A stretch of DNA of 64,000 nucleotides from Phascolarctobacterium sp. ET69 (lineage in GTDB: Bacteria; Bacillota; Negativicutes; Acidaminococcales; Acidaminococcaceae). The stretch covers positions 124,001-188,000 of the forward strand of contig NZ_JAMBLR010000002.1 in the NCBI RefSeq assembly GCF_023336935.1, written 5' to 3'. Made by a program: the position numbers and the translations under genes. Below are positions 34,112-38,999 of this stretch, piece after piece (the first letter of the stretch is position 1; every line of letters starts with the position of its first letter). The notes under the pieces were generated by a model. It searched no databases, was not told the DNA's origin, and saw only the letters and a list, made by a program, of their open reading frames with translations.

Positions 34112-34816
34112 ATGAGGGGAATGGAAATCGTAGAACGCTTAATGCACTTTAACCTTACACGCCAGGAGGCAACATTATACCTGCTGCTGGTAAAAGCCGG
34201 ACGCCTCACAGGCTATGAAGCGGCCAAGCAGACAGGCATATCGCGCTCCAACACCTATACGGCACTGGCCGGGCTGGTGGAAAAGGGTGCTGCCTATATA
34301 ATGGAAGAAGGCAAAGTGACGCGTTATACGCCGGTTGCACCGGAGGAGTTCTGCAATAATAAAATCCGCCGTCTGGCGGAAATGCGCGACGCGCTTATAA
34401 AAGAACTGCCCAGTGTAAAAAATGAGGCCGAAGGTTATATAACCATTAAAGGCAACGCAGAAATTATCAGCAAGCTGCAAAACACCGTACTTAATGCCAA
34501 AGCGCGCATTTATGTATCGGCAAATGCTGCCGTAATGGAACTTTTGCGTACTGAACTTGAAGACGCGCTTGGCCGCGGCTTAAAGGTAGTGGTTATTACC
34601 GGCAGTGATTTCCTGCTTCCGGGGGCAATTTGCTACAACACCGTTAAACAGACAGGGCAGATAAGGCTGATAGCCGATTCGCAGACGGTGCTGACCGGTG
34701 ATTTGGATGAGGGGGCAAATTCAACCTGTTTATATTCCTGTAAGCGTAACCTGGTGGATTTGTTTAAGGACGCGCTTAAAAACGAAATTAAACTGATTGA
34801 ATTACAGAAAGGTTGA
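34112..34816 (+). CDS. TrmB-family transcriptional regulator
   Basis: 234 residues. The N-terminal winged helix is of TrmB type (LTRQEATLYLLLVKAGRLTG near 13-32, then ISRSNTYTALAGLVEKG). The C-terminal half resembles the PLD-like part found in some TrmB proteins (KARIYVSANAAVMELLRTEL). AGGGG lies before the ATG at 34112. The next gene, a LysA-type decarboxylase, starts six bases after its stop, so regulator and enzyme are one operon and the ligand may be an amino acid or diamine of that pathway (inference). Confidence 0.8.
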   Translation: MRGMEIVERLMHFNLTRQEATLYLLLVKAGRLTGYEAAKQTGISRSNTYTALAGLVEKGAAYIMEEGKVTRYTPVAPEEFCNNKIRRLAEMRDALIKELPSVKNEAEGYITIKGNAEIISKLQNTVLNAKARIYVSANAAVMELLRTELEDALGRGLKVVVITGSDFLLPGAICYNTVKQTGQIRLIADSQTVLTGDLDEGANSTCLYSCKRNLVDLFKDALKNEIKLIELQKG

Positions 34817-34821
34817 GATTA

Positions 34822-36087
34822 ATGTCTGAAAAAATTCCGTTTGTTACCAAAGAACAACTTGAAGATATTGCATCACGTTATGCAACGCCGTTTTATTTAT
34901 ATGACGAAAAAGGTATCCGTGAAACTGCGCGCAGGGTAAATAAGGCTTTCAGCTGGAATAAAGGCTTTAAGGAATATTTTGCGGTAAAAGCAACGCCTAC
35001 TCCGGGCATTTTAAAAATTTTGCACGAAGAAGGCTGCGGCGCGGACTGTTCTTCTTATACAGAGCTTTTAATGGCTGATGCGGTTGGCTTTAAGGGTGAC
35101 GAAATTATGTTTTCGTCCAACGATACGCCTGCCGAAGATTTTCAGCTGGCACGCAAACTCAATGCTACTATAAATCTGGATGATATTACCCATATTGACT
35201 TTTTAGAGCGCGTGGCCGATATTCCCGATACCGTGTGCTGCCGCTACAACCCGGGCGGGCATTTTGCCATTGCCAACAACATTATGGATAACCCGGGCGA
35301 CGCTAAATACGGCATGACGCGCGAGCAACTTACCGAGGCTTACAAACGCCTTATGGCTAAGGGCGTAAAACACTTTGGCCTGCATGCGTTTTTGGCAAGC
35401 AACACCGTTACCAATGATTACTACCCGGAACTGGCACGTATTTTATTTAAAGTTGCCGTTGAATTAAAAGAAGAAACCGGCGCTTCCATTGAATTTATCA
35501 ATCTTTCCGGCGGTGTGGGCATTGCCTACCGTCCCGGACAGCCGCAAAATGATATTATGGAAATAGGCGAAGGCGTGCGCCGTGCTTATGAAGAAGTGCT
35601 GGTACCGGCAGGTATGGGCAATGTAAGGCTTTATACCGAAATGGGACGCTACATGCTGGCACCTTACGGTGCGCTGGTGAGCCGCGTTATTCACCAAAAG
35701 CATATTTATAAAGAATATATCGGGCTGGATGCCTGCGCTGCCAACCTGATGCGCCCGGCTATTTACGGCGCTTACCACCATATAACCGTTATGGGTAAGG
35801 AAAACGCGCCCTGCGACCACAAATATGACGTTACGGGCGGTTTGTGCGAAAACAACGATAAATTTGCCATTGACCGTATGCTGCCGGAAATAAATATCGG
35901 CGATTTGGTGTTTATCCATGACGCCGGTGCGCACGGTTTTGCCATGGGATATAACTACAACGGCAAACTGCGCAGTGCAGAACTTTTACTGAAAGAGGAC
36001 GGCAGCGTTGAAATGATACGCCGCGCCGAAACTCCGGCAGATTATTTTGCCACTTTTGATTTTACGGGTTTGTTTAATAAGGATTAA
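34822..36087 (+). CDS. Diaminopimelate decarboxylase-like PLP enzyme (fold III)
   Basis: 421 residues. The PLP lysine is in EYFAVKATPTPGIL (near 47-60), the glycine loop in NLSGGVGIAYRPG, and the C-terminal active-site motif is GGLCENNDKF, which resembles the LysA pattern G-x-x-C-E-x-x-D. It therefore belongs nearer to diaminopimelate decarboxylase than to ornithine decarboxylase, but some relatives act on other amino acids. ATG 34822 has AGAAAGG 9 bp upstream. It is co-transcribed with the TrmB-like regulator rather than with lysine genes, so biosynthesis of lysine is likely but not certain. Confidence 0.8.
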   Translation: MSEKIPFVTKEQLEDIASRYATPFYLYDEKGIRETARRVNKAFSWNKGFKEYFAVKATPTPGILKILHEEGCGADCSSYTELLMADAVGFKGDEIMFSSNDTPAEDFQLARKLNATINLDDITHIDFLERVADIPDTVCCRYNPGGHFAIANNIMDNPGDAKYGMTREQLTEAYKRLMAKGVKHFGLHAFLASNTVTNDYYPELARILFKVAVELKEETGASIEFINLSGGVGIAYRPGQPQNDIMEIGEGVRRAYEEVLVPAGMGNVRLYTEMGRYMLAPYGALVSRVIHQKHIYKEYIGLDACAANLMRPAIYGAYHHITVMGKENAPCDHKYDVTGGLCENNDKFAIDRMLPEINIGDLVFIHDAGAHGFAMGYNYNGKLRSAELLLKEDGSVEMIRRAETPADYFATFDFTGLFNKD

Positions 36088-36094
36088 CGAGGAT

Positions 36095-36133
36095 AACTCC
36101 GGTGCTTGTTTGGGCAGGCATCGGAGTTTTTTG
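36095..36133 (+). terminator. Terminator after the LysA-like gene
   Basis: AACTCCG (36095-36101) pairs with CGGAGTT (36122-36128), with an inner TGC/GCA pairing and a following T-tract. Confidence 0.75.
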
Positions 36134-36209
36134 TATGCCTGTGCTAATTGAAGAATAGGGCAACGTATGGTATGATTGTAAAGTAAATCTGATTATGCTT
36201 GAAATAAAG

Positions 36210-36352
36210 AAGATGTCAATACTATTACAGCCATGCAAAAATGCTGCGGCTTCTGCGATTCCGTCCGGGCTGCGCAGCCGGACTCTCTTATGTTAAATTT
36301 ATAATTTTTGCCGCCGCAGTTTTTGCTTATGGCTTTATAGCATTAACATCTT
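36210..36352. repeat. Long-hairpin element, copy 1
   Basis: A 143-bp imperfect palindrome. Outer arms AAGATG/CATCTT, CTAT/ATAG, AGCCA/TGGCT, GCAAAAA/TTTTTGC and CTGCGGC/GCCGCAG pair in register (36210-36250 with 36313-36352). Inside lies GTCCGG-GCTGCGCAG-CCGGAC (36263-36283). The inner 76-bp core matches the element at 38524-38677, while the outer arms differ in sequence yet still pair. A promoter-like TTGAAG-17-TATGAT stands upstream (about 36151-36173). It sits ahead of the M24 peptidase gene. Confidence 0.65.
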
Positions 36353-36400
36353 CCTGGAATAAGTTCGTTTACAATAAAACTATCATAAAGGAGCAATATT

Positions 36401-37627
36401 ATGTCGATATTGGAACATGCCTCGCTGATGACCGACGAAATAAGACGCGTACCGCTTGAAGAACTGCAGATACGCCTTGTGCGTTTCCGTGAGGAAATGG
36501 AAAAAGAACATCCTGGCTGGCAGATGGCGGTTATTAATAATAAAGTTAATATGTACTATTTTACAGGTACCATGCAGGAGGGCGCACTGGTTATCCGTCC
36601 GCAGGACGAGATTTTGTGGGTGCGCCGCAGCTATGACCGTGCCCGCAATGAATCGCTGCTGCCGGATATCCGCCCGATGCAAAGCTTCCGCACTTTGGCG
36701 GAATTTTATGGCGCTTGCCCGGAAGTTATGTATGTGGAATGCAGAAAAGCCACTGTTGACTGGCTGAATATGCTGCGCAAATATATGCCGTTTAAAGAAT
36801 ATGCCGATATCGACGGCCTGCTGTGCAGCCTGCGCCTTGTAAAAAGCAGCTATGAACTGGAACTGATGAAGCGCAGCGGCGCTATTCATCAGACGGTGCT
36901 GGAGAAGCTGGCGCCGAAAATGATAAAGGAAGGCATCAGTGAAGCCGAACTTGCCGTAAGCCTGTACACCGAAATGTTAAAGCGTGGTTCGCACGGCATT
37001 GCACGCATGAATCTGCCCCTGGGCGAAGATGTTATCGGCGTGGCGTCGTTTGGCAAAAGCGGGCTGGTGCGTACGGCTTTTGACGGCCCCGGCGGCACGG
37101 GCGGCACCTGCATTGCGGTGCAGAGCATTGGTTCGCCGTTCCGCAAATTAAAAGCGGGCAGGCTGGTTTATCTGGATATTCCCTGCGGCGTGGAAGGCTA
37201 CCATACCGATAAAACGATAGTATATTATTTTGGCGATATTAATAAAGACCCCAACCGCGATTTGATTTTGGCAGCGCACGAACATTGTATAATGCTGGAG
37301 CGTTTTGCCGCTGCCATGTTAAAGCCCGGCACGGTGGTGGAAGATATTTATAACGAAACAATGAAGCAGTTTGACAGCCGCTTTGCTGCAGGCTTTATGA
37401 ACGGCGGCAAGTTTTTGGGGCACAGCATAGGGCTTACCATGGATGAAAGCCCGGCTATTGCCAACCGTTTTAAAGAAGTGCTTACGGAAGGCATGACCTT
37501 TGCACTGGAGCCGAAGATTGCCCTGCCCGACATTGGCATGGTTGGCAGCGAAAACACTTACCTTGTAACGGCAAACGGAGGCAAGGCGCTTACAGGCTCG
37601 CCGCACAAGCTGTACTGCATTTATTAA
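36401..37627 (+). CDS. M24-family metallopeptidase (Xaa-Pro aminopeptidase-like)
   Basis: 408 residues: an N-terminal creatinase-like domain (about 1-150) and a C-terminal pita-bread domain. Likely metal ligands are Asp in VYLDIPCG, Asp in YHTDKTIVYY, His in LGHSIGLTMDESP, and Glu in ALEPKIALP and GSENTYL. Family members cleave N-terminal X-Pro bonds or related substrates; substrate here is unproven. AAAGGAG precedes the ATG. It is monocistronic behind the long-hairpin element. Confidence 0.88.
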   Translation: MSILEHASLMTDEIRRVPLEELQIRLVRFREEMEKEHPGWQMAVINNKVNMYYFTGTMQEGALVIRPQDEILWVRRSYDRARNESLLPDIRPMQSFRTLAEFYGACPEVMYVECRKATVDWLNMLRKYMPFKEYADIDGLLCSLRLVKSSYELELMKRSGAIHQTVLEKLAPKMIKEGISEAELAVSLYTEMLKRGSHGIARMNLPLGEDVIGVASFGKSGLVRTAFDGPGGTGGTCIAVQSIGSPFRKLKAGRLVYLDIPCGVEGYHTDKTIVYYFGDINKDPNRDLILAAHEHCIMLERFAAAMLKPGTVVEDIYNETMKQFDSRFAAGFMNGGKFLGHSIGLTMDESPAIANRFKEVLTEGMTFALEPKIALPDIGMVGSENTYLVTANGGKALTGSPHKLYCIY

Positions 37628-37754: not shown

Positions 37755-38429
37755 TCAGCCGGTGGTTTCGGAAGAACAGAGCCGTGCCAGTGCCGGTAAA
37801 TCCGTAACGGTAATTTTGCCGCGCCCTGTGGCGATGATGCTTTGCCGGCGCAGCTGCGCAAGCCCGCGCGTTATCTGCACGCGGCTCAGGCCGAGCATTC
37901 CGGCAAGGGCGTCCTGCGTAATGGCAATATCAAAACCGTAGTTTTGCGGGTTATTTACTGTTAGCAGATACAGCAGGTTGCAGATTTTGACAAAGGATGA
38001 ATTATATTCCTGATGTACGGTTTCAAACAGCAGGCGGTTGACATACATGGAATACCAGTTGACAACCTGCTCGCTTAATTCTGTGTTTTCTTCAAACATT
38101 TGGTTGAACTGTTGCCGCGTAAATTCCAGCACGGAAATTTCCGTCAGGGCAACCGTTGTAAGCGAAAGCTCTATTTTAAAGCCGCAGGTATGGTAACCGG
38201 GAAAAATACTGCCTTCGCCGTGGAAGCTGATGATTTTGCGGTGCCCGTTTTCGTGGTCGGCGTAGTGCATCAGCGCGCCGCTTTTTATGTAATGAATTTT
38301 TTCGTGCGGCTGCCCCGGACGCCACAGGTATTCGCCTTTGGCAAAGTGTTTTTCGGTATGCGGGTGCGACAGAAAATAGTCGTAAAAACGGCAGAATTCG
38401 CCTGTGAAATAATAACGTGGTGTCAGCAT
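37755..38429 (-). CDS. Crp/Fnr-family transcriptional regulator
   Basis: 224 residues with an N-terminal cyclic-nucleotide-binding-like beta-barrel (FAKGEYLWRPGQPHEKIHYI near 29-48) and a C-terminal winged helix (ITQDALAGMLGLSRVQITRG). No four-cysteine cluster of Fnr is present, so a small-molecule or redox ligand other than an N-terminal Fe-S cluster is implied. GGAGG precedes the ATG. Targets are unknown; the M24 gene is convergent, not divergent, so it is no obvious target. Confidence 0.85.
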   Translation of the reverse strand: MLTPRYYFTGEFCRFYDYFLSHPHTEKHFAKGEYLWRPGQPHEKIHYIKSGALMHYADHENGHRKIISFHGEGSIFPGYHTCGFKIELSLTTVALTEISVLEFTRQQFNQMFEENTELSEQVVNWYSMYVNRLLFETVHQEYNSSFVKICNLLYLLTVNNPQNYGFDIAITQDALAGMLGLSRVQITRGLAQLRRQSIIATGRGKITVTDLPALARLCSSETTG

Positions 38430-38999
38430 GGCGGTTCCTCCGATGTGTTGTGTTCAGTTAAATTGTAGCATTGGCGGCGTGGTTAGGCAATGGGTGTATT
38501 TGGGCTTTATAATAGGTTTGAATAAACAAAAGCTATGTACTGATGCGGTTCACGCTAAAAACTGCGGCTTCTCCGATTCCGGTCAGGCTGCGCGGCTGAC
38601 CTCTCGTTTGAATAGATAAAAAAATTTAGCCGCCGCAGTTTTTTTATCATTCACCTTACAGCACACAGCTTTTGTTTAATTAAGGTTTTTTACTATGATA
38701 TACAGATTTTTCTTTATTAAATAGTGATAAAGTACGAATTTGCAGCAAATGCGGCATATATTTTTAGCAATATTTAATAAGAAAAATTGCAAAAACTGTG
38801 TTTGTTTGAGCGAAGCGAGTTACGCAGTTTTTGTGATTTTTAAACTGGAATGTTGCGTTAAGAAAATATTCTGCCGCGAAAACTTTTTGGTTACTTTTTA
38901 GTTATAAAAAGTAACATGAGTAATAAAGTAAAAATAAAAAATTAGCGTATGGTCAAAGGCGTTAAAACAAAAATAATTAAAATAAAAGGAGCGAGCATT
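38430..38999. other. Gene-free, hairpin-rich spacer
   Basis: 570 bp with no credible gene. It contains long-hairpin element copy 2 (38524-38677), a second hairpin GCAAAAACTG..CGCAGTTTTTGTG (about 38788-38835) enclosing GAGCGAAGCGAG, and a perfect 11-bp stem GTTACTTTTTA/TAAAAAGTAAC (about 38890-38915). A TATAAT at 38508-38513 may drive transcription. The 3' end carries the ribosome site of the gene at 39000. Confidence 0.6.
38524..38677. repeat. Long-hairpin element, copy 2
   Basis: AAACAAAAGCT (38524-38534) pairs perfectly with AGCTTTTGTTT (38667-38677), and AAAAACTGCGGC (38557-38568) with GCCGCAGTTTTT (38632-38643). Inside, GGTCAG-GCTGCGCGG-CTGACC occupies 38581-38601. The core matches copy 1 (36210-36352), whose inner stem is GTCCGG/CCGGAC: both sides have changed together, which is covariation. 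The T-tract after GCCGCAG would allow it to act as a terminator. Confidence 0.65.

Follow-up and report, generated by a model that had tools for sequence, protein, structure and literature searches.

The window analysed here, 64,000 nucleotides of a Phascolarctobacterium contig, contains two long palindromes, at positions 36210-36352 (copy 1) and 38524-38677 (copy 2), that resemble each other in the middle and differ at their ends. The question they raise is whether they belong to a family of elements that is selected for its folded structure, and whether such a structure would matter as RNA or as single-stranded DNA. An earlier note, made from the sequence alone, had proposed selection on structure because base pairing appeared to be kept while the bases themselves had changed.

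Structure and surroundings of the two copies

Both palindromes are present, and their common core, for which a length of 76-77 bp had been reported, was found to be approximately 77 bp long, consisting of two ungapped repeats, D1 and D2, that are 78% and 81% identical. The inner, or apical, stem had been described as changed in sequence and nevertheless fully paired, and this is the case: it reads GTCCGG/CCGGAC in copy 1 (36263-36268 and 36278-36283) and GGTCAG/CTGACC in copy 2. The outer arms, as also claimed, differ in sequence between the two copies and pair within each. A covariance-model scan of the 64-kb window returned these two elements, both on the minus strand and spanning 36203-36359 (155 bits) and 38521-38680 (130.6 bits), and no third copy. 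Copy 1 folds best on the minus strand, at -57.5 kcal/mol (z = -6.4), compared with -49.3 kcal/mol (z = -4.6) on the plus strand, none of 200 shuffles being as good in either case, and the fold of copy 2 has a z value of -4.3.

From the outside inwards, copy 1 is built from a locus-specific outer arm, with the halves AAGATGTCAATACTAT (36210-36225) and ATAGCATTAACATCTT (36337-36352), followed by a middle stem in which 36229-36241 pairs with 36320-36334. The left side of this stem includes an A-tract, AAAAA (36237-36241), that is near-invariant in 29 copies, and the right side carries the T-tract TTTTT. Further inside are the two halves of a conserved GC stem, TGCTGCGGC (36242-36250) and GCCGCCGCAG (36310-36319), and finally the apical stem.

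Copy 1 is located between two plus-strand genes, encoding a PLP-dependent (ornithine/DAP/arginine) decarboxylase (34813-36087) and an M24 metallopeptidase with creatinase N-terminal and Peptidase_M24 domains (36401-37627). The decarboxylase gene is followed by an ordinary terminator (36095-36128) upstream of copy 1 and by a predicted plus-strand promoter, the consensus match TTGAAG-17-TATGAT with an extended -10 (36148-36176), which would place copy 1, read from the plus strand, in the 5' leader of the peptidase gene. Copy 2 is located between divergent genes, for a Crp-family regulator (37755-38429, minus strand) and an HMA-domain protein. At both copies, good predicted promoters were found only in the plus-strand direction, leading into the element and opposite to the better-folding strand. 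At 38767-38935 the window contains a second dispersed repeat, in which an imperfect hairpin (AAAAACTGTGTTTGTTTGAGCGAAGCGAGTTACGCAGTTTTTG) precedes TTTTTGGTTACTTTTTAGTTATAAAAAGTAACATGAGTAATAAAG, with similar stretches near G000:C2:274281 and at other loci; scoring 16 bits with the covariance model, it is not a member of the hairpin family.

A hairpin family restricted to one genus

The element is a dispersed repeat of approximately 157 nt. BLAST identified 13 close copies in its own 1.88-Mb genome, 11 of them beyond the two in the window, and the covariance-model search of this genome and its relatives that had been suggested in the earlier note yielded 15 own-genome copies with ordinary filters and 2 weak ones in a deeper search, which gives 13 close and 4 divergent copies altogether. 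Sorted by eye, these comprise 13 copies of type 1, two of type 2 (C1:110219 and C3:281901) and two of type 3 (C1:138763 and C6:87008), and in G005, the most divergent genome of the genus, a single type-1 copy is joined by three copies belonging to a fourth type. All types follow the same plan of outer stem, bulged middle stem, A-tract, GC stem, apical hairpin, and T-tract. The six genomes that make up the genus (uncultured Phascolarctobacterium-like Acidaminococcaceae) all carry the family, and a search of 53 other genomes from the taxonomic family found it in none, showing that it is genus-restricted. Named records carrying the core are assemblies of uncultured Phascolarctobacterium or Acidaminococcaceae, and no match was obtained in the plasmids, phages, and viral contigs searched. 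Rfam release 15, searched with strict and permissive settings, gave nothing above the gathering threshold and no credible weak match, in line with the previous failure to assign the palindromes to a known RNA or repeat family.

Within the genus, copies occupy intergenic gaps of every arrangement; they are often close to a gene end, and an ordinary terminator is often next to them. At least six abut genes that appear autotransporter-like by eye from their translations and C-terminal ends, and several (G004:C9, G004:C77, G002:C25, G001:C22, G003:C15, and G000:C5:71406) follow directly after the stop codon of such genes, whose C-terminal ends are paralogous. The two type-2 hairpins (L002 1250-1408 and L009 1652-1811) occupy two intergenic gaps of the own genome; each shares its gap with a type-1 copy of opposite strand, at a distance of no more than approximately 60 bp. 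The two type-3 copies (L164 1501-1659 and L165 1501-1656) have cores that are about 81% identical and outer arms that are unrelated to each other, each being almost perfectly complementary within itself. One remnant (L150, G004:C94) ends after the left arm, at an apparent foreign insertion.

Conserved pairing, bulges, and strand preference

In an alignment of 29 copies made without regard to structure (A2), 91.9% of cells are paired. Changes on both sides were found at 31 of 48 base pairs, compared with 17.2 expected from shuffles, and the covariation score is 0.358 compared with 0.159 in shuffles; neither value was reached in any of 500 shuffles. Sliding the partners by 1-3 columns lowered pairing to 35-46%, every slid control being far lower. 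Double changes affect 16 of the 19 outer-stem pairs, and orthologous copies differ within a single locus by 4-10 of them (L021/L015, L005/L123, L010/L032, and L004/L024). Inner-stem pairs are kept to about 95% over the 29 copies, so the unpaired inner stems in other copies that the earlier note had named as an argument against itself were not encountered. These data support its proposal of selection on structure, and RNA and single-stranded DNA both fit, as it had allowed; part of the agreement between arms could, in addition, stem from template switching in DNA.

Several unpaired bases are conserved too. The GG beside the GC stem is conserved in 98-100% of copies, the GA/GGAA internal loop of the apical part in 93-100%, and an unpaired A in the arm in 96%, this base also being an A in five of five divergent copies compared. 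Such conserved bulges argue against free copying from arm to arm, which would erase them. Between close orthologues the element is 97% identical, compared with 88% and 91% in the 50-bp flanks. With its unpaired bases conserved and its sequence better preserved than the flanks, the element has thus been retained at its loci in a specific bulged form, beyond a mere palindrome.

The two strands are not equivalent. In 34 of 36 copies the better fold is that of the minus strand (in the orientation of the window), with a mean advantage of about 10 kcal/mol, and outer-arm mismatches on this strand, counted in an alignment not fitted to structure, comprise 68 G-U and 16 A-C pairs. A mutational strand bias was considered as the cause of the G-U excess and rejected, since the own-genome copies lie both ways with respect to replication (5/13 and 8/13, orientation being inferred from GC skew) and the excess appears in both sets, with 13 G-U vs 5 A-C where the minus strand is leading and 16 vs 2 where it is lagging. 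When rare mismatches were counted once per locus, in an alignment fitted to structure, the outer arms contained 24 G-U vs 7 A-C (p = 0.003) and the apex 14 vs 8, and the inner stem leaned the other way (3 vs 10, p = 0.09); the asymmetry is clear in the outer arms only. This count was relied on instead of a parsimony count of wobble events, which favours Watson-Crick roots. Near-identical orthologues show G-U and A-C differences in close to equal numbers, suggesting that selection removes A-C mismatches later. The pattern of mismatches thus provides moderate evidence pointing to a single-stranded folded form of one strand, be it RNA or DNA.

Insertion, inversion in place, and possible explanations

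Individual copies insert at new intergenic sites and then stay at the same locus over species divergence. One filled site, flanked by an aroQ-like gene and an RND transporter gene (identified by eye on their translations), is empty in five of five relatives, where the gap is contiguous, and a copy that is common to G003 and G001 is absent in G002. No target-site duplication is visible at two loci, where the flanks have diverged, and the copies have no common terminal inverted repeats, the outer arms being inverted repeats within each copy that differ between copies. The arms are not taken from the target at insertion, since near copies at different loci share arms (L024 and L016) and the empty aroQ-like locus does not contain those of its filled counterpart. 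At one locus (AAAAAGCGCA in G002) the element seemed likely to have entered the stem of a terminator; this was rejected, as G004 has arm and terminator side by side and the aroQ-like locus keeps an intact terminator upstream. Between G000 and G002, three copies present in both have flanks with 94-97% identity (G000:C2:158-164 kb, corresponding to window 34-40 kb, and G000:C1:62-68 kb), other loci shared by these two genomes being approximately 74-87% identical; judged by this identity, the three regions probably reflect recent recombination between species.

Comparison of shared loci shows that the element can be turned end for end in place. Sequence that lies upstream in one species was found downstream in another at several loci, with the element and its locus-specific arms unchanged; the two flanks have simply been exchanged, and on each side their match extends to within about 2-17 bp. 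The clearest pairs are G001/G002 at C25/C10, G000/G002 at C1/C1, G003 vs G001 and G002 at C5/C2, and G004/G002 at C9/C1; in these, identity of the element is 90-95% when it is aligned in its own orientation compared with 57-65% in the orientation of the flanks. Inversion was found at about 5 of approximately 16 loci shared by more than one genome; some others are ambiguous, because additional genes or pairs of copies are present. The relatives are mostly represented by metagenome assemblies, in which a few inversions could be misassemblies, and inversion recurs in independent assemblies. As in a phase-variable inverton, a segment between inverted repeats thus occurs in both orientations at the same locus, here between species. 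The most likely source of the inversions, and of part of the co-change of the arms, is an exchange between arms during replication, through template switching or recombination. According to the available text of PMC3820800, mutation of a quasi-palindrome to a perfect palindrome is an established process, and that of PMC12928735 describes small hairpin-flanked inversions that flip-flop in chloroplasts.

We favour the interpretation, with a probability of about 0.5, that the family is a genus-specific small interspersed repeat whose entire 157 nt form one long bulged hairpin, kept for its folded form and tolerant of orientation. The folded form probably acts as RNA. Transcription from either neighbour would run through the intergenic gap, so that the element would fold within the read-through RNA, where it could serve as a target of RNase III or RNase E or, alternatively, its inner portion of A-tract, GC stem, and T-tract could act as a block or stop. 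Such a role in RNA, played in either direction, would keep pairing, bulges, and A- and T-tracts and leave arm sequence and orientation free, and exchange between the arms in replication, by template switching or recombination, would flip the element, as at the chloroplast hairpins. Several points speak against this interpretation. A promoter is conserved on neither side of the element, the good promoters predicted at the window copies face the wrong way for the better-folding strand, and the strand asymmetry is confined to the outer arms. An ordinary terminator stands beside several copies, so termination is not an obvious need.

A neutral explanation is possible but a good deal less probable: a functionless mobile hairpin in which template switching copies arm onto arm and flips the middle, by correction of the quasi-palindrome. 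That exchange between arms occurs is shown by the inversions at about five loci, and quasi-palindrome correction and the chloroplast flip-flops are, in the excerpts cited above, known processes. The main reason to consider it is that double changes in the outer arms include 65 transversions vs 60 transitions, since near-equal numbers would fit DNA-level copying between arms as well. A symmetric DNA process does not, however, predict the excess of G-U over A-C on one strand, and mismatches and bulges conserved across all subfamilies, together with an element more conserved than its flanks, also speak against neutrality.

It is improbable that the copies form a family of bidirectional transcription terminators or attenuators, in which the A-tract, GC stem, and T-tract would work both ways and orientation would be irrelevant. 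The near-invariant tracts that flank the GC stem would suit this role, as would the conservation of GC stem and T-tract on both strands, the T-tract that directly follows the stem on the plus strand (a mean of 7.4 T in 12 nt vs 5.4 on the other strand), the many copies at gene 3' ends or in convergent gaps, and the outer arms, which often resemble the AAAAGCCAAAGG...CCTTTGGCTTTT terminator stems usual in the genus. Nevertheless, a terminator scanner with a loop limit of 8 nt reported neither window copy, the loop of the element being about 60 nt; ordinary terminators already accompany several copies, copy 2 lies between divergent genes, and selection would not reach the outer arms if transcription ended at the inner tract.

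Movement as single-stranded DNA by an HUH/RAYT or IS200-like enzyme, with the hairpin of one strand as its substrate, would account for a strand-specific hairpin, dispersed copies, and empty sites, and Y1 transposases are present in some relatives; we consider it very unlikely that such a non-autonomous element explains the family. The RAYT/Y1_Tnp profile (PF01797) has no match in the own genome, which rules out mobilisation by RAYT there; old copies at fixed loci are still paired, where transposability would not be selected, and the outer arms are not common terminal sequences. A match to an IS end or a MITE accompanied by a transposase, which the earlier note had set against its own interpretation, was not found, the RAYT family being the sole transposase searched. 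A multi-copy trans-acting small RNA made from the better-folding strand is the least probable of all, since strand preference and conserved unpaired bases would suit it but neither side of the element carries a conserved promoter, no strong one stands out inside (an autonomous small RNA was rejected for want of a promoter signal next to or within the element), the flanks are not conserved, and orientation to them flips.

Among known systems, the family is closest in kind to ERIC/IRU (127 bp) and YPAL/RU-2 (168 bp) of enterobacteria, which the available text of PMC2229807 describes as intergenic palindromes of 100-200 bp with a stem-loop of the whole element, few to many dispersed copies, and filled and empty sites. 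The present element is likewise dispersed, intergenic, about 100-200 bp long, folded into one long stem-loop, and found at filled and empty sites, as are repeats of the ERIC/YPAL/RUP kind, and it differs in lacking a common terminal inverted repeat and a visible target duplication, in having locus-specific arms that are nevertheless paired, in its inversion in place between species, and in belonging to another phylum and genus. It is therefore ERIC/YPAL-like, yet we refrain from classing it as a strict MITE, because common terminal repeats are absent and no target duplication has been seen so far. The Correia/NEMIS repeats of Neisseria are also hairpins, of approximately 107-155 bp, whose transcripts are proposed RNase III substrates (PMC2229807, available part); in the same text they have conserved terminal repeats of 24-26 bp and a TA target duplication, neither of which was found here. 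SPRITE, RUP, and BOX of Streptococcus pneumoniae are structured small interspersed repeats, SPRITE being terminator-like (PMC3049150, available part), but their sequence and architecture differ, BOX is modular, and in-place inversion is not noted for them in that portion. The chloroplast inversions resemble the present ones in that a loop flip-flops between species via its own inverted arms, but they are single loci with arms of 11-24 bp (PMC12928735, available part), whereas here a dispersed, covarying family is involved. REP/REPIN elements with RAYT (TnpA-REP) are also dispersed palindromes, possibly moved as single strands, but their units measure 20-40 bp (PMC3733652, available part) and the own genome here is without RAYT. 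Locus-specific paired arms together with in-place inversion were not found described for ERIC, YPAL, NEMIS, or SPRITE in the available portions of these sources.

The family enlarges the known inventory of a gut-bacterial group for which the literature searched describes no noncoding RNA or repeat. Whether small palindromic repeats are parasites or parts with a job is a long-standing debate, and this family is an exceptionally clear case, since loci can be compared across several species and show occupied and empty sites, double changes, bulges that are conserved, and inversions at once. It offers a means of distinguishing selection for a folded RNA from DNA-level copying between hairpin arms, which can look like covariation and lead searches for RNA astray. 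We tentatively suggest that it may represent a new class of structured element, namely orientation-free hairpins in which arm sequence is nearly unconstrained, pairing, bulges, and strand preference are constrained, and exchange between the element's own arms turns it over, and which would regulate transcript ends in both directions or act as slow flip-flop switches.
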